DNA of 64,000 nt. It comes from Pycnopodia helianthoides. Lineage: Eukaryota; Echinodermata; Asteroidea; Forcipulatida; Asteriidae. The translations under genes and the position numbers were made by a program. The stretch covers positions 9,809,578-9,873,577 of the forward strand of contig CM063244.1 of the NCBI GenBank assembly GCA_032158295.1. Reading direction: 5' to 3'. Below, in pieces: positions 41,801 through 63,947 of the stretch (positions are counted from its first letter, which is position 1; every line of letters begins with the position of its first letter). The notes under the pieces were generated by a model that was not told the DNA's origin, did not search any database, and saw only the letters and a program-made list of their open reading frames with translations.

Positions 41801-44800
41801 ACCACGGAAGCTGTAGATCTGTTGATGATCATCACCAACGAGTATCTTAGAGCAGGGTTGATTCATGAGAATATCCTGCTGGGCTGGAACATTCAAAATC
41901 AAAGAAAATCAAACATGACACAACCTTCTCCTTCTTTGGGGTTGTTGCTCATGATCATACATCGGGGCAGCCATTTTGTCGGCCATCTTCTTGATGGTGG
42001 ATCCAGTGAGAAATTTTGTGACTTTTTGACATATTATATCAGTGTCAAATCATAATAGTAAATACTCTTTTTGCTATGTGAGAACAACACTTCCAAAGAC
42101 TTGTGAACAAACTGTACACTTCCCATGACCCTATTTCTAAATAACCCATCCTTCCCAAACTCTGCTTGTTCGGCCAAGGGGATCGATTCAAGCTCCTAGC
42201 GACATCAAAATTTGGCACAAAAAGGGAAGAAATAACATTGTTGTCCCACTGCAGTGTATCTCTCCCTAATGCTTGAAATATCTGACCTGGTGTAAGGTCC
42301 TGAGCCTCGTCAATCAGTAGACAGTCATAGTGGAGATTCCGCGGCTTGCTCAGTTGGTACAACTTCAAGTAAACTAGTCATGGGGAAACAAAACAGAGTT
42401 AGAAGTCATGATCTTGCAATTGATTTAATGAGTAATAAATTCCTTTAAAAAATTTGTCACTTCGTGAAAAAAAAACCACCCAAAACAGACGTGCCCTCAG
42501 AGTGGTCTGACAAAAGATTCTGACTTGAAAATCTTGGGTCCCGATTTAACGAAGGGCCAGGTAGATTCATATTAAAGGTAGGGTTGTCGTTTGGTTTTTG
42601 TCAAAATAATTCTGATTTACAGCAGAAGTTATCTTTAAAAAGATACAATAAAAGTCAGCTGTGAAAGTTTCAGCTTAACACAGTGTTGACTTTTTGAAAA
42701 ACAGTATTTTCATCAAGAACATTGAATCCATCCACGTTCAGCGAGGTGATAGCAGGTACTAACCACAACTCCGGCTGCAGCATTCACAAATGGACACCAC
42801 GGAAATCTGAATCTCCAAAAGTTACCTTAAGGCAAACTTTGGCTCAGAAGAAGAAAACATTCCCTACCAGTCGTCGCTCGTGTCGTTGTGACTAAATGTC
42901 GCATTGCCATTTAGTAAATAGCGCCCTCTTTTCTTAACTGTCCTCTCATTTTTCAAAAATTTAATTGGTCCATTTTTTGGGGGGTACTAAAACTTAAAAA
43001 TTGGGCTGAGTCTGATTACATCTGAACAATTGGCAGGTACGCCAGCATTCATTTTTCTAATGCGGAAGGGTCATATCCCGCCGTCCAACGAGGTTGACGC
43101 AACTCTACAAAATGCCAGCATGACACGAGTTATAGCCTGCGCCACACGAGAGGTGAGAATGATCCCCAAACTCTACAATTACCATTCCAGTGGGTTTGTA
43201 ATGCAAGATGAAATAGTGGAAAATGACATCTCTTTTGTCTATCTAGGTCATCTGCATAGTTCCAAAGCTATAACATGATATGTTTTTCATGATAGCATCG
43301 GCAACCATTTCGAATATTGCACAATAGAAAAAGTTTCCTGTCAATGCAAAGATGTGACCCTACTACACAGGGGTGAAAATTGTCGCAGTACTGACAGATA
43401 CAACTGGTTCAGGACGTAAAAAATTGACCTAAAATGGATTTCCCCGATATATTTACCGTCATGTGTTACGCTGACTTCGTGGTTGCTCAAATCCCTCATT
43501 TCTTTCCACACTCTACTTGCAGAAACTTCCACGCTCTACATGGTCGACAAATAAAAAAAAACCAATATTAAAGTTGTTGACATTGTTTTATTACGCTCTT
43601 ATTTCAATTTTAACCAGCATTCATAAATACCCGGGACAGTTTATCCGTTCTGATTGGTTGAGAGGAGACCATGTGGCCATGTTTAAACGTGCGATATAAA
43701 CACGGTGAGAAGTGTTTAAACATACGTGTGGCGCTCAAGCCAACACAATCAATACATACCGGTACAAAATGTAAAATCTATTAGTACGTGCAAGTACACA
43801 AAACCGTTGAACGTCGCTCTCAATTTGACCAATGATCGTGAAACGACGCCTGCAAGTGGACGTGCATACTAATAGATTTCACATTGAGTACCAGTACGTA
43901 TTGATTGCGTTACGCCTAAAGTAGCATCACTTGTCAGCATGCGCGCCGCGTGCATAATTAAACACTTGTCACAGCTTTTATATTGTACGTTTAAACATGG
44001 CCATGTGATCTTTTCTCAACCAATCAGAATGGATAAACTGTCCCGGGTATTTATGAATTTGAAATAATTACCATCCCAGCAACTGGCTTGATGAAACCAT
44101 CCATTTTAGGGGGTTATTTTTTGGTCATCCTGACCATGGGTTTTAGGGGTCAAGATAGCTGTCCAGGGTGTTACGGGTGGCTAGTAGGTAAAGCACTCAC
44201 TTCTCACCACTGTGGCCCTGGTTCGATTAATAAATAATAATAATAGTGGCATCTTATATAGCGCTCATATCTGTCACTCTGTGACGCTCAAGGCGCTTCA
44301 ACATTCAGTATTTTTCCTGCAAGGTATTGTGGAGCTAAGTTTTTGAAGTATTAGACTTATTCCTTCACATAGCACCATGTAATGGTTTACAAGGTGCTGT
44401 GGCGCCATATGCTGCCGATCAAACCAGGAACACCGGGGCAAACCCCTTCTCTTTTTGATAAGTGCACTGTTTTTTTTTTTACGTGCATTACACACCACAA
44501 GGGACCAACAGCTTTACGTCCCATCTGGGAATATGTGAGTAGAGTTGTGCTTTGGCTCTCTCCAATGCCACGAGGGCTCTTCTGCGGGCCTGCTGGTTCT
44601 CCTCCCTCAAGAAATATCAAACACTTTCGATCTCAGGCCGTGCTCCGTGGTCCTGTATGGGTCAATGTGGCTGGCTGTCAAAGGCGCCCTTGCATGCCTG
44701 TAGCTTGAATGCGCTGTAGCCGCACCCTTCGCAATTCAGCTTCTCAGCTGCGAGAAACAACGATTACCCTCTCAAAAATGAACAATTCTTTTGATAAATT

Positions 44801-47800: not shown

Positions 47801-50800
47801 CGTAATCGTTTCAGAACTAGTATCGCGATATTCGATAATATCGTGGCATCGCCCAAGCTTACATGGTGCAAATGTTTACCAGAGCCTATTTTCAAACTAA
47901 CCACTTGAGGTCGGATGACATCTCATGACTGTTGATTTTTTCCAAATGGCGGACCTTTATATAGGTGTGGGAACAATTTCGGAACGTTCTCTTTTGGTTG
48001 CAGTTGATTGACGTATAATTTTGCCCAAACATTCCACTGTGTTGTGTACACAGGCATGCACTTACCCTCCTATGCTTTGTTTCTCCTCAAACAAAAAGGG
48101 CCAAAGGATACTGGAATTCATGCTTTAAATTTCCCTTTTTATGGGGGGGGGGTTAAAGAAATGAGGATTACAAGAGATCTTTAGACTGCTGCTACTGTTA
48201 ATCATTGTATTCTGAATATGGGAGGTAAGTCCGAGATTCGGCATACCATGGTTAATCATAATTAGCCATGGTAACATCAGCTTTTAACCTTTTGCATCTT
48301 CACTCTCAATTTTGTAGAAGCCTGATGCATTTCGGCGCATATCAGTGCAAAAACGTTTCTCGATTTTCCCAAAATAATTGTATCTCGTACAAAAAATACT
48401 CCGTGCAAGAGCGTTGTATCTTGGCGTGTATTTGTTTTGCGAGTACACCTAGCTAGGCTACTCTAAGCGAGATACAACCTCTTTTGACAATTTTAAACTG
48501 GCATGTAACACAAGTGCTGTTTTAGGAGATACAACGTTTTTTGCACTGACACAGCGATTTCTAAATACTGAATCTCAAAATGCATTTCTTACTTGTTGAA
48601 AGCTACATAAAGGAAGGACATGTTGGGTCGCTGTCTGGCGTACCTCACTAGCGTTGTCGTCTTTCCAGTACCTTCATAATTTGGACAAGGATAAGAAAAT
48701 CTTTTTAAGAGATGTAACAAGTGCATTGGGGATAAAGAATATAATTTTTGTTTTTACCCTACACCGATGGGCAATAAGCACATAATGCTTCTCACCTCCC
48801 TGAATCCTGCAGAAAATTAATAAATCCACAGGCATGTACTACCCGGGTGGGATTCGAACCCATAATCTCGTTGTTCTAGAGCGGATGTCTTACCACTAGA
48901 TCACCGAGCGTGCCCTAGTGACAAGAGCTCAGTTCAAATACTATAATTTGTAGCATGTAGCAACAATTTTAAGACATGAGACATTTGCATCAGGGGGTCA
49001 TCATCATCAGCCCCAGTCCATGACATCCCACTGCTGGGCGCGAAGGCCTGGTCATCATCATCTTTAGCCCCAGCCCTTGTCATCCCACTGCTGGGCGTGA
49101 AGGCCTGGTCATCATCATCATTAGCCCCAGCCCATGTAATCCCACTGCTGGGCACGAAGGCCTGGTCATCATCATCATCAGCCCCAGCCCTTGTCATCCC
49201 ACTGCTGGGCGCGAAGGCCTGGTCATCATCATCATTAGCCCCAGCCCGTGTCATCCCACTGCTGGGCGTGAAGGCCTGGTCATCATCATCATTATCCCCA
49301 GCCCATGTCATCCCACTGCTGGGCATGAAGGCCTGGTCATCATCATCATCAGCCCCAGCCCTTGTCATCCCACTACTGGGCGCGAAGGCCTGGTCATCAT
49401 CATCATTAGCCCCAGCCCGTGTCATCCCACTGCTGGGCGCGAAGGCCTGGTCATCATCATCATTATCCCCAGTCCATGTCATCCCACTGCTGGGCGCGAA
49501 GGCCTGGTCATCATCATCATTAGCCCCAGCCCGTGTCATCCCACTGCTGGGCGCGAAGGCCTGGTCATCATCATCATCAGCCCCAGCCCGTGTCATCCCA
49601 CTGCTGGGCGCGAAGGCCTGGTCATCATCATCATTAGCCCCAGCCCGTGTCATCCCACTGCTGGGCGCGAAGGCCTCTACCACACTGTGCCGAGTATGTC
49701 TGTTCTGTGTATGTCTCTGCCAGGCTGTTGATCCTACTGGCTGACTATCTCGTCTCTCCATCTTGCTCAAGGTCTGCCACTGTTTTCTTTTCTCCCAGAG
49801 AGAGGTTACATTCCTACATGATTTCGCTTTATTTTTCGTCTTTTGTTCTGCCTAAGTGTTCTGCCCATCTCAATTTTATCCTTTCTATTGGTTACTAAAT
49901 GCATCATTGATTCCCTGATCCATATTTTGTTTTTTTCCCACCTAAAAAAACATGTCTTGAAGGTATTTCCTGAACCAATATCCAGGGGCTTTCTCATGAT
50001 AGTGGTATGACAAAATGTCTGCAGGAGTTGGAGGGTGGGCCTGGGGTCGATTTCACAAAACCCTTCCTAAGCAGGACGAGGCCTAAATAATATAAAACCA
50101 CAAACAAGTTTTCGGACGAGGCTGAAATAGCTAAAGCAATGGCTATTTGATGCCTCTATTGCTTCACTAATGAAACGGCCGTCTGAACCTTCAAATTGCA
50201 CATCACAAAAAAAACAGATCGTCAGCCATTTTGTTTTCGCGCGAAAAATGTTTACAGTTTACGGTTGATTTTAGGCCTTTATGATTGAACAATCAATGTG
50301 TGTGTTTATATAGAGCTGAGGTAAGCTGTTTTGTGTAAATTTGTTGATTAAAAGGAGGGAGAAAATGTAATTTGGGTGAAAAAAATGTAAAGAAAGTGCC
50401 GTGTTTGTCAATTTTCCGCGATCGCGGAAAAATCATTGGCCCTACACAGTACACCTGGCCCGTATTTCATGTTTTATTTGTCCACCAACCCTGTCTACGT
50501 CTGTCGGTATCCCCTGCCTCGTAAATCTGTATTTATGGACGATTTCCTCGTCTAGTTCAGACTATCTTACGGATTCCGTCTGCCACGGAAGAGGCGTTCT
50601 CGTATAGCTCCCGTCTCTCTTCATGGTCAGCCATAAGTAGCAGCGCCATTATTATATCAAGCAACGTATCGTTGACATACAAATATAACGCAAAATCATC
50701 CGCTAGGACAACCCTCGTACCCGTCCTAAGTTAGGACAGGTTCCGGGCCGTTTCCAAGGTAATTAGGACACGTCGAACACTTCCTATCTTTTGTGAAATC

Positions 50801-53800: not shown

Positions 53801-56800
53801 AAAACACCCATAGTGTTTCAATTACTGAGTAATGATTTAAAAACATAAATCTGCCTCTGGATTAACAACCATGCAGCGGAACACATGGTCCGCCATTTTG
53901 TGGAGAACAAAATTTGGTTCTACATAATAGCTGGCCGTATTCTGTCATGCAATTACACCAACAACAACAAAAATTCATGGGTCTATTTATGTGAATCATT
54001 ATGTTCTACTTTTAAAATATCTTTCCAACCATATTAAGTTCATAACAAATGCTTTTTATAGCCCATAGTGCTCAAACATTTTTTTTACTGTAATTTCAAC
54101 GAAAAATCACACATTGTCAACGATTTGCCATGATTGATTACTACAAGCAGCCATTTTTGTCCTTCTTTTTATAGCATTGTCACTCCTTTATTTAATAAAA
54201 AAAGAAGGCACTTTTGAAGTAGTGCCACGAAGTTTGACACAAGTCATTGGCCATTTGGTGCTCGATATGTTGCAGGGTGTACCCCTCCTCCTATTGTGTC
54301 TTTATTGTGTTCTGGGAATCTCAGGAATTCTTTGGAAAATTATGTTTTTGTTCGTGGGGGGTACAAGAGTACAGGAACATGTTAAGTGACTCTCTGCCAC
54401 ATTCCGAGACTGATATATCATTATTGGCTTTCAATATTGGCTTTCATCCTACGCAAAATCATGTTCAATGGTTATAAAGAGGAAACCATCCAATAACCAA
54501 GATCTTCAATTCAGTGACCACATAATATGTGTATCATTCGTGTATTTAAAGTGCATATTATGCACTTTAAATACACGAATGATGGCGTGTACCGTATCTG
54601 CAAAGCAAGCCCGGCGCCTATATATTTCCTTAAAAAGACAACAGACAGAATACCTGGCTCATCTGTTATTCTTCAGATACGAGCGAATCAAAGCAATTGC
54701 TCTTCAACACGGACAAGTTCACGAGGAGGGGACGACCACGACCGACACTACTGGCACAAGTCTGTAACAACCACACCAAAACGACTGATGAACTGCTTGA
54801 AGACGCGCCGAAGAAGGAAGGTTGTAGTTCGACTTATGCCACCCGATATCTGGTCAATTACCGGATGGGTTAAACTCTGTGTATGTATGTACGTATTACT
54901 TACCCAATGTTGTGGCCAAACAGTCTCTTATATATCCAGAGATGAGATGCGATACAGTACATGCATTCCAGTAGCTCCATGGTGGTGCACGTAGCCGTAG
55001 GGTGCAGGAGACATCTCAGAATTGCAGACACGTCATGTACAGTCTCAGAGAGGAAGACCAGAAGTGCGATGGTTGACCAGGGATTCGGTATCTGTCGCAA
55101 AAAAAGGAAAAAGAGTCAACGTTGAAAAGAGACAATTCATCAGATTGTCAATCCTCTTCCATCATACCTCTTTCATTATCAAAAACAGAAGGGCATTATG
55201 CAAATAAATATCTAAAAAAATGAACATTCAAAATTTGGCATTTTAGCACGCTAACAGACTGTCACCACAAATAGACAACCCAGAGATTTTGACAAAGCAG
55301 TGCCGTCTTTCAAGTCCAAACTGTATGTTCACATTTTCAAGATAATGGAAGACCTTTGAAAAGCAATCATGGAATCCCCCCAAATCCTTACAAATCAAAC
55401 ATTTCAAACAAATCACTTACTCCCCCCTACGAGGCTAGCAAGTCATGGTAGGAACCTAAGGAACAGTAACCACATAACTCAATTCCCTATTAGAACCAAG
55501 CGCTTCCAACAAAGTCCCATCCCTTACTTCATTAACATTTTAAATGCCGGCCCTGCGTGATTTTTCTTAGCGTATTGTTTTGTCTCCCTGGTTTTGTGTT
55601 TTTAGTTTACGATTATTTGTTTGTTTTTCTTGCCTAGCATTTTGCTATTTTTACCATTTTTTTTTCTTCTACTATTTCTATTTTTTTTACTATTTTATTG
55701 TTTTAATGTTATTGTCTTTTGGAATTTGGCCTCCGGGCCACGATTTGAGACAAATAAAAGAAATGAATGAAATGAATGAATGAATTTGAAACATTCAACT
55801 GCTTTGCAACTCTCTTTCCAGGCGAGGAAATTTGGGTGCTTAGGGAGCATCTCAACAGTCTGAATGGTAAGAGCGTTCTACTTGGACCGGTCAAGTATTC
55901 CAGCAGGCATACAGTGACTGCCGGCGTGTTACATTGAAACAACCAAAATGCCAATGCGCACATTCAATCCTGTAGTGTAGGAATGTGCCCCTAGTTCAGC
56001 ACAGTGTCGCGGTCAAGCGGAACCTTCTGGCGGTCAACCAGATTGTGGAAGTATGCCGACGGGAAAGTTCCTTCACGCCAAGAATGTGCCCAACTTTTAA
56101 GACACTCCCTTAAGAAATAGGTAATAATAACATTAACAAGCCGCAGCGGTGATTGCATTAATGCGGTCACCGCTGCGGCTTATACGACGGGCGGTCCTTC
56201 GTGGTTGGCGGGTGGCACATCAGTCATTGTACATCGCCACAAAGTGCGAGTTGCGTTGCATTGAAGTAAAACATGTATTGAAGTTAACACCATCGATCGT
56301 TACTGAAATCGTTATTTAGAATGATCTGCAAGAACAAGAGTGTTTTTTTCATCCCCAGAATATTTTACAAACGATCTTTTAAAAAAAGTGTATGCTGGTT
56401 TTTGTTCTTCATTATTAACATGTCATGGTAAAAGCCACCCGGTATATAAGCCGCAGAATTTTTCTAAGGGCCAAAAATCAATGTATAAGCTGCGGCTTAT
56501 ACGCTGAAGATTACGGTAGATCACAGCACTGTGCCAAGCATCAAACCTCATCAGATAGATACATGTAGAATAATCCAGAAAAAAGGATGTGATTGAATAG
56601 TGTCAAACAATTAGACTTGAGATGGCAGTTCATTTAAAAGTCTGGGTTTTGCATAAGAGAAAAGCACTGTCACCAGCAGAATTTACAGTTCTATATTCAG
56701 AAAGAAAGGGGCAGTCAGAGCCAGAGTGTAGGCCAGGTCTTCTATGTACTCCATGAAAACACCTAAATGCATATAAGTGGAGTGTCGTGGCCGAGCGGTT

Positions 56801-59800
56801 AAGAGCACCAAACTCAAGTTCTGGTGTTTCTGATCAGCAGAGTGTGAGTTCGAGTCCCGGTCGTGACACTTGTGTCCTTGAGCAAGACACTTTTAAACCA
56901 TTATTGCTTCGTTCTTCAGATGGAACGTAAAGCTGTAGGTCCCGTGTGTTGTATTAAAAGACCCCAGTACACACTTATCGCTAAGAGAAGGGGTTCACCC
57001 GGGTGTGTCTGGCAGTACGTTTATCTTCAATCATTTGAAGGCTGCACTCAAAAGGAAGAAGTAGAAGAAGTTCATTTTAAAGTGTATTCCTTGTTGGTGA
57101 TTTGTACAGTGATTTTGCGTTCCACTTAATACTTACGCCACATTGTAGAAGCTCGGGGGCTCTGTCTTCAATGATGTCCTTAGCTAGACTATACTTTGGG
57201 TGCTTCTGAAGATCTCGGTCCATGGAGGGGCCAAAACGAGCCTGGAAATTAGGCATGTTCCTTGGTTTGTAAAAAATGAAAAGAGAAAAGGATTCAGATC
57301 AAGGAGGTAGGGTGTAAAGATTGTTTATCTCAGACTCTTTTGTGTCCGTTTTTTGCTTTCGGAAAAGATTATAGTTTAAAGTTGCTTGACCTGGTTTCAT
57401 GCCAGAAATGTTTTTTCAATTAATTTGTTTTTCAAAGAATTTGTTCTCTTATTTTTGGGTTGCACACACAAAAATGGACTAGAGCGGGATTTGAACCTGC
57501 CACTTCTGGATTATTGTGCCGGCATTCAACCAACTGAAATATTTTCATTATAGGCATGTCCATTTACAATGTTGAAACACATTTATTGCAAGGAGTCCCC
57601 TTCATCGAGAAAAGTTGCAATATACTTTACAGGGGTTTCCCCGGTATTTTTCAAAACTGTTGGGCATTCTGGACCTAAGTTTGGCCAAAGCATACTGAAT
57701 TGAAACAAGGTCCTTGGAATGGTCTTCACTTGGTGCTTATCTTTAGTTTTAAAAACCCCTACTGTGCAATCTGTGCCATTCTATATGGTTTTATGATTTT
57801 TGTGAATTTGATCCAAAGTTTGAAACAAAACAAAAACAGCCAAAAACAAAAAAATTGCTATAGGCTGTAATTCGCGCGTATCGGCCCACAATTAGTGCGT
57901 ATTAACCCGATATGAAATCATTCGTAAAAACCAAATTTGTCAAACCAAAATAAACGCCCAACAGAAAATATTTTCAAGCACTTATCTGAAATCAATTCAG
58001 TGAACAATTTTCCTTGTTACACCAAGGTAATAGATTGTGAATTTGATTGGTCGAGAACCAATCACGTGACGTGCTACAAAGACGCATGTTTCCAGCAATG
58101 GTGGTTTCTATCACCTTGTACAATATTTAAAATAGCCCTGGGTATGAGGTTATAATTATGAAGCAATATTTCTGTCAACAACCTGTTAGTCTGCATTTTT
58201 AACTGTGCCAATTTCGTCGTAATAATGTTGGAAATTACAACAGTTCCTCTCCAGATATTATTATTATTATTATTATTATTTTATTTGCCATAACAGTACA
58301 AAACAAAATACAAGACAATATACCCCGAGATGGGCAAGGGACAACAAAAGCAAATACATACTATGATCCGTAGATCTGTTGCCCCACATCTGGGGTAAAA
58401 TATCTATTACCATGATTACAAAACAATTGTTGCTTTGCTTTTTGGGTGCCATTTGCCCCCTCGGGTGTACAAAACACCATGGATCCCCCATCACAGCTTG
58501 CAACAATTGTACATGTGTATAATGTCTAGCATAGCAAAGTCCTACACAAATGTATCAGTTTCTACACAAAAATCATAGTTTGCCACTCCATATTACATAG
58601 CAGTCCATTTGCACAAAACACGTTCAGTCTAGATATTTTGCTATTATGCAAAATTGCTGAACAAAATTTTTCCCGGTCAACTGACCTGACAAGTTCTAGC
58701 ATGAACTTAGACTCTGCTACTGGCGCATTGCCTAGCTTGGTGAGCAGGTTCTCTCGGTCACTCCGGTTAATCTCAACCTTCTGACGTACTCGGTGATAAG
58801 TCTTCTTCCATGGTAAGAACTGGTCAAAAATAGTATCAATAGTAACAATGACCAATCAAAACTTGCATGAATTACTCACGGTGATAAGTCTTCTTCCATG
58901 GTAAGAACTGGTCAAAAATAGTATCAATAGTAATAATGACCAATCAAAACTTGCATGAATTACTCACGGTGATAAGTCTTCTTCCATGGTAAGAACTGGT
59001 CAAAAATAGTATCAATAGTAATAATGACCAATCAAAACTTGCATGAATTACTCACGGTGATAAGTCTTCTTCCATGGTAAGAACTGGTCAAAAATAGTAT
59101 CAAGAGTAATAATGACCAATCAAAACTTGCATGAATTACTCACGGTGATAAGTCTTCTTCCATGGTAAGAACTGGTCAAAAATAGTATCAAGAGTAATAA
59201 TGACCAATCAAAACTTGCATGAATTACTCACGGTGAAAGTCTTCTTCCATGGTAAGAACTGGTCAAATAGTATCAATAGTAATAATGACCAATCAAAACT
59301 TGCATGAATTACTCACGGTGATAAGTCTTCTTCCATGGTAAGAACTGGTCAAAAATAGTATCAAGAGTAATAATGACCAATCAAAACTTGCATGAATTAC
59401 TCACGGTGATAAGTCTTCTTCCATGGTAAGAACTGGTCAAATAGTATCAATAGTAATAATGACCAATCAAAACTTGCATGAATTACTCACGGTGATAAGT
59501 CTTCTTCCATGGTAAGAACTGGTCAAATAGTATCAATAGTAATAATGACCAATCAAAACTTGCATGAATTACTCACGGTGATAAGTCTTCTTCCATGGTA
59601 AGAACTGGTCAAAAATAGTATCAAGAGTAATAATGACCAATCAAAACTTGCATGAATTACTCACGGTGATAAGTCTTCTTCCATGGTAAGAACTGGTCAA
59701 AAATAGTATCAAGAGTAATAATGACCAATCAAAACTTGCATGAATTACTCACGGTGATAAGTCTTCTTCCATGGTAAGAACTGGTCAAAAATAGTATCAA

Positions 59801-62800
59801 GAGTAATAATGACCATTCATAAATACCTCGGAGAGTTTATCCATTCTGATTGGTGGAGAGCGTGTCACGTGGGGGTGTTTAAACGGATGATATAGACATG
59901 GCTAGAAGTGTTTAAACACACCTGTGGCGCGCAAGGTTACACGCAGGCACTAATTTACGCGAAACGCAATCAACACATTTTGGTATTTAATCTAAAAACA
60001 TGATAGTGTTATGACGCGCGCGTACGCACAACTGTTGATCGTCACGGGTTCGAAATTAGCGGTCGCCCGGTCGCCAAATGCGAGTGAAAGTAGCGGCGGG
60101 CGAGTCAAAACCCTTCCTTTACTAGCCCGCCGGGCGAGTCAAATAATTGTTCCTTTTTACAATAAATGTGGGAACAGTGGTAAAATCCCAAAGAAAGCTT
60201 TTAAAATAGTTTGACAAGTCTGGATATTTGCTAGATTTAATGTTGCCGCGATCGCGATCAAAAATTGCGATCGATCATTTCGGTATACAGTCGTTAAAAC
60301 ACTATGCACATAACCACATGGTGCTGACTGCTGAGAATCCACCCGTGCACCCGCCCCCACACACAACGTTCGGTCGCCCACCGGTGGCAGTCCATGCATA
60401 GCGTATACACAACACACAGTCCACTGTTCAAAGTCCAAGCTAACCAACATTCCGCAAGCTGTGATTGGCCGTTGATGGCCGTTGATAATTACCATATTCA
60501 TAAGATCTTGGCTAGACTTTACCGCAGTACACGTTCACGAACGGAGTAAAGAATTGCCGCACATTGTTCAGCACGTCTGCAGATTGTGTACAATACACAG
60601 CCTTGGATTAAGTCTAACCAAACATCACCAACTTTGCCGATAGAGGGCGATGCGGTTCAAAGTTCATTGAATTATTTCTCAATGTGTGTTGTCGACCGAT
60701 CGCTGATTCACGAAGATTTTATTGCAAACGAAGTTCAAAACAACCGATCCTCAAAATATGAATCCATAAAAATGGTTGTTGATGGAAAAAGGATAATTTA
60801 GGGCAGAAATTAAGGGATAAAAAACGTCCCAAAACGCAATTTTGCTAACTTGTTTTGAAGTTTTTTTTTTTTTCCTTTACGTTTTCAAAATTTTGTGTGT
60901 ACATACATATACATGCGGGCTAGTGAAAAAACCTGCGGGCGATCCAAAAGTTTGGTTGAATCACCCGGCCGGCGAGTGGAAAAAAAAGTTAAGGGAAACC
61001 CCTGTTGACGTGGCATGTATATCCTTCGCGAAACAGGGCTCGAGGACGTGACAGGAAATGAAAGTTAACAGAAAAGTTGAGATTTTTCCAACAATATTAC
61101 GCTTTTTACCAAAAAGGCCATTTATGAATGGGAATAAAAGAGTAGTGACTTGGTCTTAACCGGCCGTCTAAAACCTTGCAGGGCCGTGGCCGTGCGATAA
61201 AGGACCTCACCTTCGGCTCGGTCCTTTATTACACGGCCACGACCCTGCCGGTTTTAAACGGCCGGTTAAGACCGCGTCGCTACCCTTTTATTCCCTTAAT
61301 CAAAACTCACATGAATTACTCACGGTGATAAGTCTTCTTCCATGGTAAGAACTGGTCAAATAGTATCAAGAGTAATAATGACCAAGACACTACAACTCCG
61401 GCAGGCCTGATGCTGCTTTGTTGTTTGAGAGGGCAAGGACACCAAGGTGTTTTCTCCTTGGTAAAGGGCACCTCTATGGGAGTGTCGTGGCCGAGCGATT
61501 AAAGAGCTCTGAACTCAAGCTCTGGTGTCTCTGATCAGCAGAGTGTGGGTTCGAGACCCGGTCGTGACCTTTTTGTCCTTGTAAGCAAGAAACTTAACCA
61601 TTATAGCTTCGTCTTTCATGAGACGTAAAGCCGTCTTGCAGTGCGTTTATTTTCAATCATTCGAAAGCTGCACTCAAAAAAGAAGAAGAAGATATTGTAA
61701 AACCTTCTTGAAGTACCAGGCCAGCAACTGTATGCAAACCATCATACAAATCTTTCAGAAAGTTGACAACTTAAAAAAAAACCAAGGTGCCCCCCCAAAA
61801 ATCCCCCCCCCCCACAAGGCACACAAAAAAGTTAGTCTGTGGAGTAGACCACTTTCCATCACCGTCATCACTGAATGACATAATGCATGGAAATAAACCT
61901 CTAGGGGTGTACGCACCATGAAAACTCTCAAGCAATGAGAGGTCTTCCTTGGACATCCACCAAGAACAACTGAAGTTACTTTGAAACCCATTCTCATATT
62001 TTGTATAATTATATATATTTATCCTTTTATTTTCTGTCACTGTTTTATTTTGTTGAAAGTACCTTTTAATGACTTATAGTTGTTTTGCCAGTGTAAAGTG
62101 TAAATTTAAATAATAAAAAAAAAATAAAAAACACCCAATAATAATAATAAAATGAATTCTTACTGGTCACGCCTGCCCCATAGTAAAGCCTAAACATTTG
62201 TTGGCACCCCTATTTTAAAAACCCCCAAGGTTTTTAATTAAATTATGCCATTTATTGAAAACTTCACAAACAGCTCTCCTCTATTTGTGTCATGCAAAGT
62301 ATAAACAAATCAAATAAATTAGTTACTGTACAGATTTTTCTTCATTTTGATCACTTACCTCTTCTTTTGAGATGATTTCATTCCAGAGTTTACAAACGCG
62401 GCTGAGGTGTTGACACATGTCCACCAACGGCACAAAGCAAAAGATCCTCTGCAAGACCTCGATGGGAAGTTGAGCAAACCCCGAAGAAGCCACCGTCTCC
62501 TCATCGTTGAATCCCTCTCCCAAGAGGCCGAAGGTGTTCCATGGATTGTTGTCCGTTTGAGAAGAAGGCAATGAGTGGCTATTGGCGGAAAGCATCTCAG
62601 GATCGATGTTGTCGAAGAAGCTGTCGTTATTGAAGGCCTCCAGGTTGCTATCGACTCCAGAACTGTGCGCTTGGCCAGCACCAGGTGTCAACACAGCTGC
62701 ATCAAAATTTAAACCGTCGAATGTGGTGTCGTTGTGAAAATTTTCAATGTCACTCTCGAGAGTGCTTTTCACAGACTTGGCAGGATTAAGGACTGATGAA

Positions 62801-63947
62801 GAGCTGAGTTGTATGGAAACTGGTTCAGGCAAAGTTACATCAAAATCTAAGTCATCAAATGAGGTGTCATTGTGAAAATCTTCAATGTCACTCTCAACTG
62901 TGCTTTTCTCAGACTTGCATGGACTCGGGCTTTGTTTTGGTTTCAAATACATGAACGTCTTTGTTGGGGTTCTTTCTTGAGAACTGGGCGGTAATGGTTG
63001 GCTGAGACTGTTTGAGGGCAGTCTTGACCAGCTCTTTGGAGATTCTTGAGCACCATGGTTCTCACCATCAGTAGCTTGTCTTGGACTTAGTGTTGGGCTA
63101 CTCATATTCTTGTCAGCGGTGTAACTGGATTGAGTCTGACTAAGATACAATTTGGTTGGTGTTCTGTGGGGCCAAGATTGAATGTTCCTGTGAGACGGTG
63201 ATCCACCATGAGGACCAGCTGGTTGACTTCTCCCAGATGCCGGGCTGAACAGTCCTTTGGGATGATCTTACAGGGTCCATTGCAGCAAACTGAGAGTTTA
63301 AAATTTTTCCTTGGGATTGGAGAGTTTCCTGAGGTTCCTTGGGACATTGGCGACATTAAAAGTTTCTGGATGAGAGCCTGCCCGACCAATGTTTTCAATG
63401 ACCGAGTGCTCAGTCTTGCGTGGTGAAGCAGGGAAGTAATGAATTCCAGATTGGTTTTTCAATTTCATCTTCTCCGGACTGGAGCCCTACTTTAATTGGA
63501 CTAACTGCATGTCCTTTTGCTGGCAGTTGTTGCCTGAGAGTGGGAGATGCAGCCGCAGCCCTTTGGCGATAGGAAGGCCTGGCTACGCAGGTCTTGGGTA
63601 CAGCCCCCTGTTAACATCTTTGCTTGATGTCTTGACCAGCTGTTGGATTCTTCAGTGCCATAGAGCCTTGCACGGTCTGCGCTATGCTCGGCACAGTCCA
63701 CTGAACTCATATGCAGAGACGTTTTTCGTTTTACACACCGGCTGCATTTGTCGAACAGTTGTGGGAACTTGGGCCGGGGAAGATACATGTAAGCTGTGTG
63801 CATTTTTTCCTCCTGATGGGTTAGTAGTGGTCGCAGCCTCAATCTCATCATCAGTGTGTCCTACGTTGTCCTGACTGAAGCTGTTGGGTAACCGGCAAAA
63901 TTTTTTCCCAAGGCCACGAGATGCCTTTGTTGCTTCTTCCCGTGTGC
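23716..63947 (-). CDS. FBH1: F-box DNA helicase 1 (FBH1/FBXO18), about 20 exons
   Basis: Spliced gene. Six exons in the middle are present twice because of an assembly duplication. It encodes an F-box and a UvrD-type superfamily 1 helicase: Q-motif FTHEQ, Walker [20 protein letters not shown], Walker [44 protein letters not shown] and YVALTRAKK, then two CxxC pairs. These match vertebrate FBH1 in order and spacing. Known role of the family: 3'-5' DNA helicase and SCF (SKP1-CUL1) substrate adaptor acting in the nucleus at stalled forks, limiting RAD51 filaments and homologous recombination. Exons 3-20 total 2157 nt (718 codons plus stop) with consistent phases. Exon 2 to 3 is out of phase, and the N-terminus upstream of 63265 is frame-broken. 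Estimated length is similar to the human protein (1043 residues). Confidence 0.93.
24240..24478 (-). mobile_element. tRNA-derived SINE (GACCCCGGTTCAAATC head), - copy
   Basis: On the - strand: head GGTTGGCGTAGTGGTATCTC and box B ACCCCGGTTCAAATCACC, body TGGATTGGGTTTTTCAGTCC, 3' tail TAGTGATTAAGTTCGCTT and TCCTTGGCTTC. Same family at 26968-27232 on +. In FBH1 intron 19. Confidence 0.75.
24623..24748 (-). CDS. FBH1: FBH1 exon 19: first CxxC
   Basis: 42 codons, phase 0 to 0. [18 protein letters not shown], then [20 protein letters not shown]. The CVAC pair is in the position of CCVGQC in the vertebrate C-terminus, a probable zinc-binding half. Confidence 0.9.
24812..24992. mobile_element. Short MITE (CGCCATCTTTACGGGCAA ends)
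   Basis: Left GCCATCTTTACGGGCAA and right TTGCCCGTAAAGATGGC are perfect 17-bp inverted repeats; total about 181 bp, in FBH1 intron 18. Confidence 0.7.
26133..26254 (-). CDS. FBH1: FBH1 exon 18: motif VI
   Basis: [20 protein letters not shown], then [24 protein letters not shown] is motif VI, carrying the Arg finger. Phase 1 to 0, donor GCAAAG|gtacgt. Confidence 0.94.
26655..26747 (-). CDS. FBH1: FBH1 exon 17: motif V
   Basis: [19 protein letters not shown], then [21 protein letters not shown] is helicase motif V. Phase 1 to 1, acceptor ttttgcag, donor CAAA|gtatgt. Confidence 0.94.
26968..27232 (+). mobile_element. tRNA-derived SINE (GACCCCGGTTCAAATC head), + copy
   Basis: Box B ACCCCGGTTCAAATCCTGCC, then TGTGGATTGGGTTTTCAGTC and 3' tail TAGTGATTAAGTTCACTT, TCCTTGGCTTCA. 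Inverted relative to 24240-24478. Confidence 0.75.
27266..27432. mobile_element. GCAGGCCTGGAATT-family MITE copy
   Basis: CAGGCCTGGGATTCCATC at the left and GTGTAATTCCAAGCC at the right, with CAACAGAGGCCATGGCCTCC inside; reverse orientation to 6051-6243. Confidence 0.65.
27552..27737 (-). CDS. FBH1: FBH1 exon 16
   Basis: 186 nt, phase 1 to 1. [20 protein letters not shown], then [18 protein letters not shown]. Aligns without gaps to the FSGFKRY...IAVVEKYNIRIPELV stretch of human FBH1. Acceptor ccgacag, donor GCAG|gtttgt. Confidence 0.93.
28328..28576. repeat. Two-copy direct repeat in FBH1 intron 15
   Basis: GGTTTCTAAACGGGACTG / GGTTTCTAAACTAGACTG, ATTAACTCATGAATAAATC / ATTAACTCATGAGTAAGTC and TTGTTTACGTATGTTCTAA recur in the same order about 110-150 bp apart. 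Confidence 0.75.
29507..29570 (-). CDS. FBH1: FBH1 exon 15, copy A (assembly duplicate)
   Basis: [14 protein letters not shown] exon, same as 37798-37861 at offset 8291. This copy is contiguous with exon 16. Confidence 0.88.
29571..30250. repeat. Degenerate tandem repeat with ghost copies of FBH1 exon 15
   Basis: Intron 14 is made of degenerate units of roughly 150 bp with ACAATGTGTGGATCA, TATGCCCTAAATGTGTGG and ACCACAACCAAAATTC. On the - strand a site at 30143 reads attcag|GGCACAGATGGATATGG, an altered copy of the exon 15 acceptor and start (attcag|GGCATAGAGGGGTATGG). Other units keep only AGGGCATA. Equivalent region 37862-38541 in copy B. Confidence 0.75.
30298..30419 (-). CDS. FBH1: FBH1 exon 14, copy A (assembly duplicate)
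   Basis: ITRTN exon, same as 38589-38710 at offset 8291. The intron immediately upstream of its acceptor is strongly diverged between the two copies. Confidence 0.9.
30916..31111. mobile_element. GGGCCCAATTTCATAGAGC foldback MITE, copy A
   Basis: Left AGGGCCCAATTTCATAGAGC, right GGTCTATGAAATTTGGC; interior GCTTATAAGCAC, ACTGGCATCCTGCTCATTTC. Allelic copy at 39213-39409. Confidence 0.75.
31374..33043. repeat. 62-bp minisatellite, about 27 copies, copy A
   Basis: Unit: ACCTCAATGTATCTAGCAC, TACCAAAGTGTTTGTTG, TACATGTACATGCAGAGCAG, TTTGCT. A subset of units carries a 5-bp insertion giving GTAGGCCTATCTAG, clustered in the second half. In FBH1 intron 13. Confidence 0.95.
33176..33275 (-). CDS. 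FBH1: FBH1 exon 13, copy A (assembly duplicate)
   Basis: SFRFG exon, same as 40557-40656 at offset 7381. Confidence 0.9.
33686..33900 (+). mobile_element. Diverged tRNA-Leu-type SINE, copy A
   Basis: GTTGTTGCCAAGCAGTTGAG head, then CCAGACTCAAGCTCTGG anticodon arm and ACACTTGTGTCTTTGAGC body. 3' end lost. Copy B at 41068-41282. Confidence 0.65.
33922..34262 (+). mobile_element. tRNA-Leu(CAA)-derived SINE, copy A
   Basis: Head GTGTCGTGGCCAAGCGG with anticodon arm CTGGACTCAAGCTCTTG, variable arm, and box B GGGTTCGAGTC; body GCACTTGTGTCC, CTTCGGATGGGACATTAAGC; 3' tail CTATAGTGATCAAGTTCACT, GCATCCTTGGTTTC. Sense to +, antisense to FBH1. Confidence 0.82.
34365..34501 (-). CDS. FBH1: FBH1 exon 12, copy A (assembly duplicate)
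   Basis: Motif III exon ([13 protein letters not shown]), same as 41747-41883 at offset 7382. Confidence 0.9.
34905..34991 (-). CDS. FBH1: FBH1 exon 11, copy A (assembly duplicate)
   Basis: Walker B exon (LIDEAQD), same as 42287-42373 at offset 7382. Confidence 0.9.
36125..36203 (-). CDS. FBH1: FBH1 exon 10, copy A (assembly duplicate)
   Basis: Same sequence and splice sites as 43457-43535 (offset 7332). Treated as the other haplotype, not an extra exon. Confidence 0.88.
36288..36727. mobile_element. ATTCATAAATACCCGGG MITE, copy A
   Basis: About 440 bp with long inverted ends: ATTCATAAATACCCGGGAC, AGTTTATCCGTTCTGATTGG and CATGTTTAAAC, mirrored at the right (GATAAACTGTCCCGGGTATT, TATGAAT). 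In FBH1 intron 9. No coding capacity. Confidence 0.82.
36835..36934. other. Assembly gap, 100 N
   Basis: Exactly 100 ambiguous bases, the conventional filler for a gap of unknown size. It separates the two copies of the duplicated block. Confidence 0.99.
37798..37861 (-). CDS. FBH1: FBH1 exon 15, copy B
   Basis: 64-nt exon: [20 protein letters not shown] then S. Aligns with [20 protein letters not shown]. Phase 0 to 1. Copy A at 29507-29570. Decayed copies of its first half sit in the upstream intron. Confidence 0.88.
37862..38541. repeat. Degenerate exon 15-containing tandem repeat, copy B
   Basis: Same as 29571-30250 at offset 8291, with single-base length differences (for example one fewer A near 38155). 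Confidence 0.75.
38589..38710 (-). CDS. FBH1: FBH1 exon 14, copy B: motif IV
   Basis: [20 protein letters not shown], then FREAVNIV and [15 protein letters not shown] corresponds to GQVALLSRTN of vertebrate FBH1. Phase 1 to 0, donor GCTGGG|gtaaga. Copy A at 30298-30419. Confidence 0.92.
39213..39409. mobile_element. GGGCCCAATTTCATAGAGC foldback MITE, copy B
   Basis: Allelic counterpart of 30916-31111, with GGGCCCCATTTC at the left end. Confidence 0.75.
39673..40424. repeat. 62-bp minisatellite, about 12 copies, copy B
   Basis: Same unit as 31374-33043 but less than half the length, with the AGGCC insertion in a single unit near the right end. Confidence 0.95.
40557..40656 (-). CDS. FBH1: FBH1 exon 13, copy B
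   Basis: [20 protein letters not shown], then [13 protein letters not shown]. Follows LTQ of exon 12 to give LTQSFRFG as in vertebrates. Phase 0 to 1. Copy A at 33176-33275. Confidence 0.9.
41068..41282 (+). mobile_element. Diverged tRNA-Leu-type SINE, copy B
   Basis: Allelic counterpart of 33686-33900 (offset 7382). Confidence 0.65.
41304..41644 (+). mobile_element. tRNA-Leu(CAA)-derived SINE, copy B
   Basis: Allelic counterpart of 33922-34262 (offset 7382). Confidence 0.82.
41747..41883 (-). CDS. FBH1: FBH1 exon 12, copy B: motif III
   Basis: [20 protein letters not shown], then [16 protein letters not shown]. GDxHQQIYxFRGA is motif III of UvrD-type helicases; vertebrates have GDPHQQ. 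Phase 1 to 0, donor ACACAA|gtatga. Copy A at 34365-34501. Confidence 0.92.
42287..42373 (-). CDS. FBH1: FBH1 exon 11, copy B: Walker B
   Basis: [16 protein letters not shown], then [17 protein letters not shown] is helicase motif II (Mg/ATP hydrolysis). Acceptor gactag, donor CACCAG|gtcaga, phase 1 to 1. The junction codon reads Val where vertebrates have Gly. Identical copy at 34905-34991. Confidence 0.92.
43457..43535 (-). CDS. FBH1: FBH1 exon 10, copy B
   Basis: [20 protein letters not shown], then VSVTHD(G); matches EASRLWDNMRKLGE...MTHDG. Acceptor catgtag, donor GACG|gtaaat. Second copy at 36125-36203. Confidence 0.9.
43619..44058. mobile_element. ATTCATAAATACCCGGG MITE, copy B
   Basis: Allelic counterpart of 36288-36727, differing by a few substitutions. 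Confidence 0.82.
44167..44770 (+). mobile_element. Second SINE-like family with a nested insertion
   Basis: Head GGCTAGTAGGTAAAGCACTC, CTGTGGCCCTGGTTCGATT, and body ATGTGGCTGGCTGTCAAAGG, CGCAATTCAGCTTCTCAGC match 50885-51165. Between head and body about 300 bp is inserted (44227-44520) containing TTATATAGCGCTCATATC and CTCAAGGCGCTTCAAC. The outer element begins right at the edge of the duplicated block. Confidence 0.6.
44814..45069 (-). CDS. FBH1: FBH1 exon 9
   Basis: 256 nt, phase 2 to 0. Reads [20 protein letters not shown], then [20 protein letters not shown]; the second block is nearly the vertebrate AKLVCKTLENFFASADEEL. Donor AGGATG|gtgggt. This is the last exon before the duplicated block. 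Confidence 0.92.
45280..45345. repeat. ATT-tract plus TATATAG...CTCAAGGCACTT repeat
   Basis: TAATAATAATATTATATAG, then GGTACTCAAGGCACTTG; a diverged relative of the piece nested at 44227-44520. Confidence 0.5.
45541..46336. repeat. 52-bp minisatellite, about 15 copies
   Basis: Unit: CTTGACTAGTTTTTGCAAGC, TAGGCTAGTAACTAAACC, AAGCCCCATGTACT. Spacing between successive AGCTAGGCTA motifs is 52 bp. A higher-order variant with GGCTATAGTAACTAAACC recurs at intervals. In FBH1 intron 8. Confidence 0.93.
46474..46563 (-). CDS. FBH1: FBH1 exon 8
   Basis: 90 nt, phase 2 to 2. Encodes [14 protein letters not shown], then [15 protein letters not shown], equivalent to AKQAERVFPSNV...TFHSMAYGHIG of human FBH1 (helicase motif Ib region). 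Acceptor tgtcacag, donor TGGAG|gtaagt. Confidence 0.92.
46737..46855. mobile_element. GGCCTGGAATT-family MITE fragment
   Basis: GCAGGCCCAGAATTACATGG at the left and CGGAAGTGCCCTTTGCTAAA inside match 6051-6243; right end missing. Confidence 0.55.
47181..47860. mobile_element. hAT-type nonautonomous transposon with 8-bp target duplication
   Basis: Ends AAGCTTGGGCGATATCGC and GGCATCGCCCAAGCTT, flanked on both sides by ACATGGTG (47173-47180 and 47861-47868). Interior has ATATCGCGATATTCG-type palindromic runs at both ends and a short tandem GATCGTCTCGAC/AACAAGGAGATT piece. 8-bp duplications are characteristic of hAT elements. No transposase frame. In FBH1 intron 7. Confidence 0.82.
48593..48671 (-). 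CDS. FBH1: FBH1 exon 7: Walker A
   Basis: 79 nt. With exon 6 it completes [17 protein letters not shown], then FLYVAFN(K). GxGKT binds ATP phosphate; an intron splits the motif. Donor AACAA|gtaaga. Confidence 0.93.
48745..48915 (-). mobile_element. tRNA-derived SINE (GGTAAGACAT head), - copy
   Basis: Inverse of 20278-20450: CTACACCGATG..., then GGGTGGGATTCGAACCCATA and TGTCTTACCACTAGATCACC at its 5' end. Confidence 0.65.
48998..49676. repeat. 57-bp minisatellite, about 12 copies
   Basis: Unit: GTCATCATCATCATTAGCC, CCAGCCCGTGTCATCCCACT, GCTGGGCGCGAAGGCCTG. 57 is a multiple of 3, so both strands stay open (a 278-codon frame on -, 215 on +; the - peptide repeats [19 protein letters not shown]). 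It lies in FBH1 intron 6 with no splice or homology support for coding. Confidence 0.93.
50044..50885. mobile_element. Foldback element (GGTCGATTTCACAAAA ends)
   Basis: Left GGTCGATTTCACAAAACCC and right GTTTCGTGAAATCGACC are inverted repeats; internal CCTAAGTTAGGACAGG, TTTTGTGAAATCGTTCC repeats. About 840 bp, no coding capacity. In FBH1 intron 6. Confidence 0.65.
50885..51165 (+). mobile_element. Second SINE-like family, uninterrupted copy
   Basis: CTGTGGCCCTGGTTTGATTT, GCGTTGGCTCTCTCCCAATG, ATGTGGCTGGCTGCCAAAGG, TTCAGCTTCTCAGCTGCGAG; same order as 44167-44770 without the insertion. It ends about 65 bp from FBH1 exon 6. Confidence 0.65.
51231..51313 (-). CDS. FBH1: FBH1 exon 6: helicase Q-motif
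   Basis: Reads [19 protein letters not shown], then VVKIQAFA(G). FTHEQ is the UvrD-family Q-motif, and AFAG is the first half of Walker A. Phase 2 in, phase 1 out (GCAG|gtaaat). Confidence 0.93.
51592..51785. mobile_element. GGGCCCAATTTCATAGAGG foldback MITE
   Basis: Left GGGCCCAATTTCATAGAGG, right AGCTCTATGAAATTAGGCCC. Interior GTGCTTAAGCAC... and GCTTAAGCAGC. Confidence 0.78.
52059..52396. mobile_element. TTAA-flanked MITE, copy 3
   Basis: TTAAAGGCCCTGTACACTA at the left, inverse of TTAAAGGTATTGTACAC at the right, TTAA on both edges; reverse orientation to 1985-2314 with high similarity. Confidence 0.75.
52728..53003. repeat. 20-bp minisatellite (ACTGGGTGTCCATATTCAAA)
   Basis: About 13 copies; the central five are identical, edges diverge. 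20 is not a multiple of 3, yet all three + frames stay open because the unit lacks stops. In FBH1 intron 5, about 150 bp from exon 5. Confidence 0.92.
53149..53274 (-). CDS. FBH1: FBH1 exon 5
   Basis: Phase 2 to 2. [17 protein letters not shown] matches HYNIFYCLYLQENS of vertebrate FBH1. It continues [18 protein letters not shown], a low-complexity linker before the helicase core. Acceptor tctgcag, donor CCAAG|gtacac. Confidence 0.9.
53595..53690. repeat. Dispersed repeat shared with 7540-7660
   Basis: GCCTGAAAAGTCTATAAAAA and CCATATGAACGTGTAGGTC. Confidence 0.5.
54533..54583. repeat. Perfect palindrome, 24-bp arms, 3-nt spacer
   Basis: ATCATTCGTGTATTTAAAGT|GCAT, ATT, ATGC|ACTTTAAATACACGAATGAT. 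All 24 positions pair. In FBH1 intron 4. Confidence 0.95.
54579..54767 (+). other. Unassigned small open frame beside the palindrome
   Basis: 62 codons from ATGATGGCG, reading [20 protein letters not shown] and [20 protein letters not shown]. The composition is protein-like, and a second frame continues past it ([19 protein letters not shown]). It could be a transposase remnant, but I do not recognise it. Antisense to FBH1, inside intron 4. Confidence 0.2.
54904..55091 (-). CDS. FBH1: FBH1 exon 4
   Basis: 62 codons plus 2 nt. Starts [20 protein letters not shown], passes [20 protein letters not shown], and ends KRLFGHNI(G). Aligns with the helical region between F-box and helicase in vertebrate FBH1 (VNDIQRLLFCLRRP). 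Acceptor gcgacag, donor ATTGG|gtaagt. Confidence 0.88.
55365..55795 (+). mobile_element. 5'-truncated LINE 3' end
   Basis: A frame at 55369-55560 ends [18 protein letters not shown], resembling the C-terminal end of LINE reverse-transcriptase polyproteins, followed by T-rich sequence, TTTGGCCTCCGGGCCACG, an AATAAA and a (GAAT)n tail at 55760-55792. In FBH1 intron 3. Confidence 0.55.
56130..56515. mobile_element. Element with TATAAGCCGCAGC inverted units
   Basis: Left end carries a 44-bp near-perfect palindrome (56138-56181: AAGCCGCAGCGGTGA ... TCACCGCTGCGGCTT). Right end has TATAAGCTGCGGCTTATACG, then CTGAAGATTACGG. Likely a nonautonomous DNA transposon; family not assigned. Confidence 0.55.
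56781..57050 (+). mobile_element. tRNA-Leu(CAA)-derived SINE
   Basis: The head folds like a tRNA: acceptor strand AGTGTCG pairs with TGACACT; GGCCGAGCGGTTAAGAGC box A; CCAAACTCAAGTTCTGG anticodon arm with CAA; GTGAGTTCGAGTCCCGG box B. Body GATGGAACGTAAAGCTGTAGG, 3' end TCATTTGAAGGCTGCACTC plus AAG-rich tail. About 85 bp from FBH1 exon 3. Confidence 0.82.
57137..57241 (-). CDS. FBH1: FBH1 exon 3
   Basis: 35 codons, phase 0 to 0, acceptor atttccag and donor TGTGGC|gtaagt. Reads [20 protein letters not shown], then [13 protein letters not shown]; corresponds to the CSPSVDPERV... region of vertebrate FBH1. The preceding intron has an unresolved phase problem. Confidence 0.8.
57478..57545 (-). 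mobile_element. tRNA-like SINE head fragment
   Basis: Inverse reads GTGGCAGGTTCAAATCCCGC with TTTCAGTTGGTTGAATGCC; same family as 7979-8041. Confidence 0.45.
58257..58283. repeat. (ATT)n microsatellite
   Basis: Nine ATT units followed by TTATTTGCCATAACAGTAC, a typical retroposon 3' junction. Confidence 0.85.
58686..58819 (-). CDS. FBH1: FBH1 exon 2
   Basis: Acceptor ttgaccag then TTC; donor GTCAG|gtcagt. Encodes [18 protein letters not shown] and continues to ESKFMLELV(R), matching the segment right after the F-box in vertebrate FBH1 (FIPWKKLYHRY). Length 134 nt leaves phase 2, which does not fit exon 3. Its acceptor and first 28 bases are reiterated in the adjacent 87-bp array. Confidence 0.85.
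58820..59815 (-). repeat. 87-bp array of reiterated FBH1 exon 2 start with splice sites
   Basis: Eleven units plus the authentic exon. In gene orientation each unit has acceptor tatttttgaccag, then 28 nt identical to the start of exon 2 (TTCTTACCATGGAAG ... TATCACC), then gtgagtaattc, a strong donor that the real exon lacks. Mini-exons are 59 nt apart. Example: 58880-58907. Units differ mainly by a 2-bp deletion (TCAAAAATAG to TCAAATAG) and aTAg/aGAg variants. Confidence 0.95.
59816..61129. mobile_element. ATTCATAAAT-family element inserted in the 87-bp array, with a nested element
   Basis: Left ATTCATAAATACCTCGGAG, TTTATCCATTCTGATTGG, GTGTTTAAACGG resembles the 36288-36727 MITE ends; right GGCCATTTATGAAT. 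Between about 60049 and 61010 a second element is nested, with inverted GCGGGCGAGTCAAA / ACCCGGCCGGCGAG blocks. No complete protein is visible. Confidence 0.6.
61130..61295. mobile_element. Long-arm hairpin element
   Basis: Arms of about 75 bp: GGGAATAAAAGAGTAG, TGGTCTTAACCGGCCGT, GGGCCGTGGCCGTG, AAAGGACC against their inverses (GGTCCTTTATTACACGGCC, CGGCCGGTTAAGACC, CTACCCTTTTATTCCC). The loop is only about 10 nt. Confidence 0.85.
61303..61386 (-). repeat. Orphan 87-bp unit beyond the insertion
   Basis: One further unit (ATCAAAACTCACATGAATTA, CTCACGGTGATAAGTC, CCATGGTAAGAACTGGTCAA) separated from the main array by the 59816-61302 insertions. Confidence 0.9.
61399..61470. mobile_element. GGCCTGGAATT-family MITE fragment
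   Basis: CGGCAGGCCTGATGC, TTGAGAGGGCAAGG, GGTAAAGGGCACC; interrupted by the SINE at 61481. Confidence 0.45.
61481..61690 (+). mobile_element. tRNA-Leu(CAA)-derived SINE, short copy
   Basis: AGTGTCGTGGCCGAGCG head, TGAACTCAAGCTCTGG arm, GGGTTCGAGACCCGG box B. The middle of the body is deleted; 3' end TCATTCGAAAGCTGCACTC plus AAG repeats as in 56781-57050. Confidence 0.8.
61691..62358. other. FBH1 intron 1, left part; nothing firmly identified
   Basis: C-run (61786-61813), AT-rich sequence and a - strand open frame (about 61771-62040) with [18 protein letters not shown] that I cannot assign. No splice evidence ties it to FBH1. Confidence 0.3.
62359..63265 (-). CDS. FBH1: FBH1 F-box exon
   Basis: Open on the - strand from just after a TAA near 63266 to donor AAAGAAGAG|gtaagt (62359). 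The N-terminal two thirds is Ser/Pro-rich and includes three imperfect copies of an acidic motif ([18 protein letters not shown] and relatives). The C-terminal part is an F-box: [18 protein letters not shown], then [19 protein letters not shown]. The F-box recruits SKP1. The 5' border is uncertain; the frame continues from the broken upstream region. Confidence 0.88.
63266..63947 (-). pseudogene. FBH1: FBH1 N-terminal coding, interrupted by several frameshifts
   Basis: An excellent acceptor (T-run then cccaag, 63966-63948) opens a frame reading [17 protein letters not shown] to YEFSGLCRA, stopping at 63682-63684. Plausible low-complexity coding then continues in other frames: [17 protein letters not shown], then [18 protein letters not shown], then [17 protein letters not shown], and finally the F-box exon frame ([15 protein letters not shown]). 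Two switches sit at or next to homopolymers (ggggg, aaaaatttt). Either uncorrected read errors or a truly damaged N-terminus explains this. No complete frame is claimed. Confidence 0.5.

Follow-up and report, generated by a model that had tools for sequence, protein, structure and literature searches.

A minisatellite across the intron 1/exon 2 junction of FBH1 in the sea star Pycnopodia helianthoides, with a potential mini-exon in each unit

Intron gain by tandem duplication has been described for the RNA-dependent RNA polymerase gene of potato, where the new intron is reported to be spliced (PMC4974935). For human duplicated genes, internal tandem repeats at exon-intron boundaries are stated to be capable of forming novel introns and alternative splicing (PMC2812944). 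A paper from 1995 (23:1854) deals, by its title, with a minisatellite containing multiple splice donors, and an abstract on the human TERT gene describes an intronic variable tandem repeat, VNTR6-1 in intron 6, that alters splicing of its gene (PMC11830802). The FBH1 array described here, located in a 64,000-nucleotide stretch of the Pycnopodia helianthoides genome (the window), belongs with the published boundary repeats and junction-duplication introns. Its unusual feature is that each of the 12 units, as read from the DNA, is a complete potential mini-exon.

The comparison with these systems reveals likenesses and differences. The array would share with the potato case the same kind of junction duplication; however, the latter involves one duplicate, for which splicing was shown by RNA reads, whereas the FBH1 array comprises 12 intronic units read from the DNA. 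In addition, and unlike in potato, the FBH1 units lie upstream of an intact exon, and their donor apparently required a further insertion of 2 nt (PMC4974935). The human repeats have the minisatellite size and the position at an exon-intron boundary in common with the FBH1 array, but they occur in paralogues in segmental duplications, with transcript support, and a row of complete mini-exons is not described in the passages compared (PMC2812944). The 1995 case, by its title, concerns donors only, whereas each FBH1 unit has both an acceptor and a donor. VNTR6-1 is likewise a tandem repeat within an intron, but it is located some 3.5 kb upstream of exon 7 and, in the abstract and passages compared, is linked to G-quadruplexes and not to splice sites within the unit (PMC11830802). 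The C. elegans minisatellites associated with alternative splicing are, as summarised, motifs in introns, not repeated exons (PMC4039745). An earlier note on this DNA knew of no equivalent in FBH1, and indeed none is described among the literature matches listed (titles and beginnings of abstracts, with subscription journals mostly outside the coverage), but repeats of the same kind have been published for other genes (PMC4974935 and PMC2812944). Among the 10 of 32 matches listed for one of the queries, neither FBH1 nor FBXO18 was named. A query for starfish minisatellites, introns and genome assembly gave no match within the same coverage.

The assignment of the gene to FBH1, already proposed in the earlier note, was confirmed by several searches. 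The gene lies on the minus strand; two F-box Pfam models exceeded their cut-offs at 62323-63267, and the joined exon translations matched the solved F-box DNA helicase 1, the sole distinct sequence with an E value of up to 0.01. A protein search with a rough model covering most of FBH1 yielded five proteins with E values no higher than 1e-40, with an F-box DNA helicase 1-like protein of Asterias rubens as the top match to this rough model (72% identity, 100% of the query) and an F-box DNA helicase 1-like protein of Patiria miniata at 49% identity and 92% of the query, which points to a starfish closer to Asterias than to Patiria. A tblastn search with the Asterias protein placed the FBH1 exons from 63636 down to 23719. 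The 3' coding part of exon 1 used here (62359-62658, minus strand; exon model and protein match) ends at 62359, with the donor GTAAGT from 62358 down, and the real exon 2 (58686-58819, minus strand, 134 nt; exon model and Asterias protein match) starts at 58819 in phase 0 and has the donor GTCAGT at 58685 down. In the tblastn alignment, the Asterias protein reads IISKEEFLPWKKHYHR, without an insert. The exon 2 motif was found once in 60 of 120 listed proteins and twice in none, the other 60 being outside the pattern, and a looser pattern yielded one double match in 125 proteins. It should be noted that the exon model is automatic: an exon at 37799-37861 is absent from it and was found by tblastn with the Asterias protein, and exon boundaries may be misplaced because the donor scores are low after E5, E9 and E10.

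On the minus strand, there are 13 occurrences of the exon 2 start, 12 of them in repeat units and one in the real exon. In transcript order, the first unit (61298-61385, minus strand; the "orphan") carries its 28-nt mini-exon at 61324-61351; 11 contiguous units, delimited by TRF and the exon-start matches, occupy 58854-59815 on the same strand, and the terminal repeat (58792-58853) is the real junction, where the genuine end of intron 1 (58820-58853) meets the initial 28 nt of the real exon 2 (58792-58819). The first bases of the mini-exons are 61351, 59780, 59692, 59604, 59518, 59432, 59344, 59258, 59171, 59083, 58995 and 58907, and that of the real exon 2 is 58819. Every unit contains the end of intron 1 (32-34 nt), the first nucleotides of exon 2 and, directly after them, GTGAGT; the intron stretch common to units and junction measures 34 nt, reduced to 32 nt in four units by the lack of two T. 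The exon piece covers 28 of the 134 nt of exon 2 and is identical in 11 of 12 units, the exception being the unit at 59258 with 27 nt; there are few further places at which the units vary among themselves. GTGAGT is present in 12/12 units, whereas the real exon has GAGTAC at this place. The earlier note was thus correct about the number of units and about the restriction of this donor to the repeats. Its uniform picture of 87-bp units with 28-nt mini-exons and 59-nt introns needs correction: between 59780 and 58819 there are 11 spacings, of 88 bp (seven), 86 bp (three) and 87 bp (one), the mini-introns that separate adjacent units are 58 or 60 nt long, and the mini-exon length is valid with the one exception mentioned.

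TRF reported the region 58791-59819 with 11.8 copies, 98% matches and a score of 1953, and therefore the array is not a product of chance. The real junction at 58819 lies inside this region, so that near-identical head-to-tail units overlap a splice junction, as befits a minisatellite at an exon-intron boundary. The stretches of 58-60 nt between the mini-exons run from GTGAGT to CAG and represent new intron-like segments, for which the origin of the tail from the exon is probable, not certain. Within the 64-kb window, the unit had no match beyond the array and the orphan, and an introner or another dispersed element was set aside on the strength of this 64-kb scan. A cluster of mutually exclusive exons was also rejected, because the exon pieces are not diversified, and the changes between units are too few for reading selection from them.

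The array is interrupted by a transposon-like insertion of about 1.48 kb (59816-61297), recognised by matches of its end to two elements in the window; its left edge at 59816 is uncertain by a base. The left end of the insertion matches both ends of the elements at 36289-36726 and 43620-44057, a near-palindrome is located at 61130-61295, and no target-site duplication was identified for 59816-61297. As the unit runs on across both sides of the insertion, the possibility that the orphan is an independent duplicate was rejected, and the segment is read as an insertion, possibly a composite one, into one array. The count of 11 contiguous units plus one orphan in the earlier note was accurate, but the orphan is an array unit separated by the insertion; similarly, the interval given there for the array (58797-61386) has units at both ends, but 57% of it is the transposon-like insertion.

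The best explanation of this arrangement, and in our view a likely one, is a minisatellite founded by a tandem duplication that spanned the boundary of intron 1 and exon 2. A duplication would have copied about 85 bp, comprising 34 nt from the end of intron 1 and 51 nt from the start of exon 2. The upstream copy would no longer have been coding, so that its exon 2 nt 29-51 could drift and gain 3 nt, including a 2-nt insertion that would turn CACCGAGTA into CACCGTGAGTA and thereby generate the donor. The resulting 88-bp form would have been amplified through unequal exchange or slippage, and the transposon insertion would have split the array later. Exchange with the real junction would homogenise only the common stretch, and one working exon 2 would be left after every change in copy number. 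With the real start of exon 2 as the last repeat, expansion or contraction would leave it intact.

This scenario depends on the origin of the 26-nt tail of the units, which includes GTGAGT and for which nt 29-51 of the real exon 2 (58769-58791, minus strand) are the probable source. The sequence that follows the 28 nt common to both is GTGAGTAATTCATGCAAGTTTTGATT in the unit and GAGTACGTCAGAAGGTTGAGATT in the real exon. When aligned in register, the two agree at 17 of 23 exon positions, and the unit has 2 + 1 extra nt; the alignment is short, and its compared length of 23 was chosen after the data had been seen. Equal in-register scores were reached by 28 of 20,000 shuffles of the tail and by 27 of 20,000 random 26-mers of the window, and by 62 and 70 of 20,000, respectively, when GTGAGT was held fixed. 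When the register was not fixed, and targets of 24, 30, 60 and 100 nt were used, 48, 76, 100 and 54 of 5000 shuffles and 32, 42, 130 and 108 of 5000 window 26-mers were as good. A scan of 2630 positions in intron 1 and exon 2 (array excluded) yielded one position with a score of 8.5, and 7.5 was reached by seven of the best eight listed, the in-register place included. The first unit starts at TTGGTCATT, roughly at the end of the tail alignment, as predicted if 34 intronic and 51 exonic nt were duplicated. Judging by these alignments, the tail probably derives from exon 2 nt 29-51 by divergence, and the donor probably arose via the 2-nt insertion after this exon copy had ceased to be coding.

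Drift at an even rate does not account for this pattern: the 28-nt stretch is intact in 11 of 12 units, whereas the tail shows 6 differences over 23 positions and 3 inserted nt. Homogenisation therefore has to be assumed. Exchange through the common stretch only would keep this stretch uniform while the tail drifts; an origin of the tail elsewhere would make the assumption needless. Alternatively, exon 2 might formerly have comprised only 28 nt, with an intron beginning GTGAGT behind it, so that whole mini-exons were duplicated and the last copy lost its intron precisely. The stretch common to the units stops exactly at a usable donor, which would suit this proposal, and the in-register resemblance between tail and exon is not overwhelming; nevertheless, we regard it as rather improbable, because an exact intron loss is required and the tail does resemble exon 2 nt 29-51 in register.

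The splicing potential of the units was estimated using approximate matrices. The acceptor is identical in sequence to the real one in 8 of the 12 units and has the same score of 5.5; the score is 3.6 in the other four. The donor of the units has a score of 5.3 and is outscored by 11 of the 16 modelled FBH1 donors, while 5.4% of all GT on the minus strand have scores at least as high. The shortest of the 16 modelled FBH1 introns have 400 and 403 nt, in contrast to the 58-60 nt of the mini-introns. The splicing apparatus generally recognises very small exons, like very short introns, poorly. Exon 1 would mostly be joined to the real exon 2, since the decoys have the same acceptor but their exons are poorly definable, and occasional use of a decoy would lead to frameshifted or stop-containing RNA. 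Judged from these features, splicing is expected to be normal for the most part, with frameshifted RNA arising through some leakage.

Inclusion of mini-exons does disrupt the reading frame, as would be demanded of decoy or poison exons. One 28-nt inclusion results in a stop 24 codons past exon 1 and two inclusions in a stop after 47 codons; in exons 1-3, which were checked, stops were found for 1, 2, 4, 5, 7, 8, 10 and 11 inclusions of the 28-mer, and no stop for 3, 6, 9 or 12. The rule of the earlier note that one or two inclusions shift the frame and three keep it is therefore valid for the 28-nt units, but the 27-nt unit at 59258 included alone keeps the frame, without a stop within exons 1-3. 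If a repeat acceptor is used without its donor, a stop follows at the 12th codon.

To judge how particular these features are, 7 of the 33 TRF rows were selected by us, six in the gene span and one outside. For an 88-bp segment placed at random in the gene span, the probability of covering a splice junction is 0.082, and only the 88-bp array among the seven overlaps an exon. An acceptor-like site with a score of 3.6 or better is present in all six other arrays, and a donor of 5.3 or better in none of these six; the repeated donor is thus particular to the 88-bp array, which is a point in favour of a decoy function. Such a functional cluster, in which decoy acceptors would capture exon 1 and the frameshifted or retained-intron RNA would lower FBH1 output, could also draw on the acceptor shared with the real exon in 8 of 12 units, on the intact donor in all 12, and on the early stops after one or two inclusions or after acceptor use without the donor. 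We nevertheless consider it unlikely, because the donor is mediocre, the exon very small and the introns only 58-60 nt long, and intact sites tell little about selection when the units are near-identical. The more elaborate idea of a length-tunable splicing rheostat, in which the 12 mini-exons divert FBH1 pre-mRNA to decay, the number of units sets the level and the array is kept for that purpose, appears very unlikely.

Further minisatellites are present within FBH1, as detected by TRF, and one of them has 26 copies at 31374-33043 versus 12 copies at 39673-40424, likely an allelic length difference. This allele-like variation, the mediocre donor and the mini-introns, which are far shorter than 400 nt, favour the benign interpretation, and most likely the array is a largely innocuous repeat that does not serve regulation; so far, nothing supports a regulatory role. 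From the three readings offered in the earlier note, the benign minisatellite is thus preferred, nonproductive isoforms are likely a minor by-product, and the splicing decoy is unlikely. If the duplication origin is true, the locus would offer a clear snapshot of a minisatellite absorbing a splice junction without killing the gene, in which each unit would supply a ready acceptor and, following one small insertion, a donor. It would also be a natural test of splicing choice, with one to be selected among 13 nearly identical acceptors.

The allele-like contrast in copy number lies in a region that bears on the quality of the assembly. The only N run of the window, 100 N at 36835-36934, separates the blocks 28644-36834 and 36935-44165; the blocks share 96.8% and 97.5% identity in the two main alignments, the same FBH1 helicase exons are matched in both, and the modelled 10,853-nt FBH1 intron runs across the doubled block. 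On the basis of this similarity, the two blocks are probably two alleles put in tandem by the assembly, which would indicate that the assembly is imperfect. An assembly error that inflated or invented the intron 1 array, for which this doubled block could be cited, is nevertheless highly improbable: the sole N run is elsewhere, away from the array, and the array contains unit variants in mixed order, one private deletion and an insertion. The copy number of the array may be off in the assembly.

Several other repeats were observed. An FBH1 intron contains a 57-bp repeat of about 12 copies (48998-49676), with open frames of 305 aa on the minus strand and, in two frames of the plus strand, of 254 and 235 aa. 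The segment 61479-61679, with relatives at 56779-57053, 33925-33997 and 41307-41379, is by its appearance presumably a tRNA-derived SINE; ARAGORN and Rfam gave no match at 61479-61679. ARAGORN found no tRNA in the window, and the single Rfam match in the window is tRNA-like (7969-8041). Outside FBH1, minisatellites are located at 18466-19987 (54 bp, 28 copies) and 9873-10246 (84 bp, 4.5 copies).
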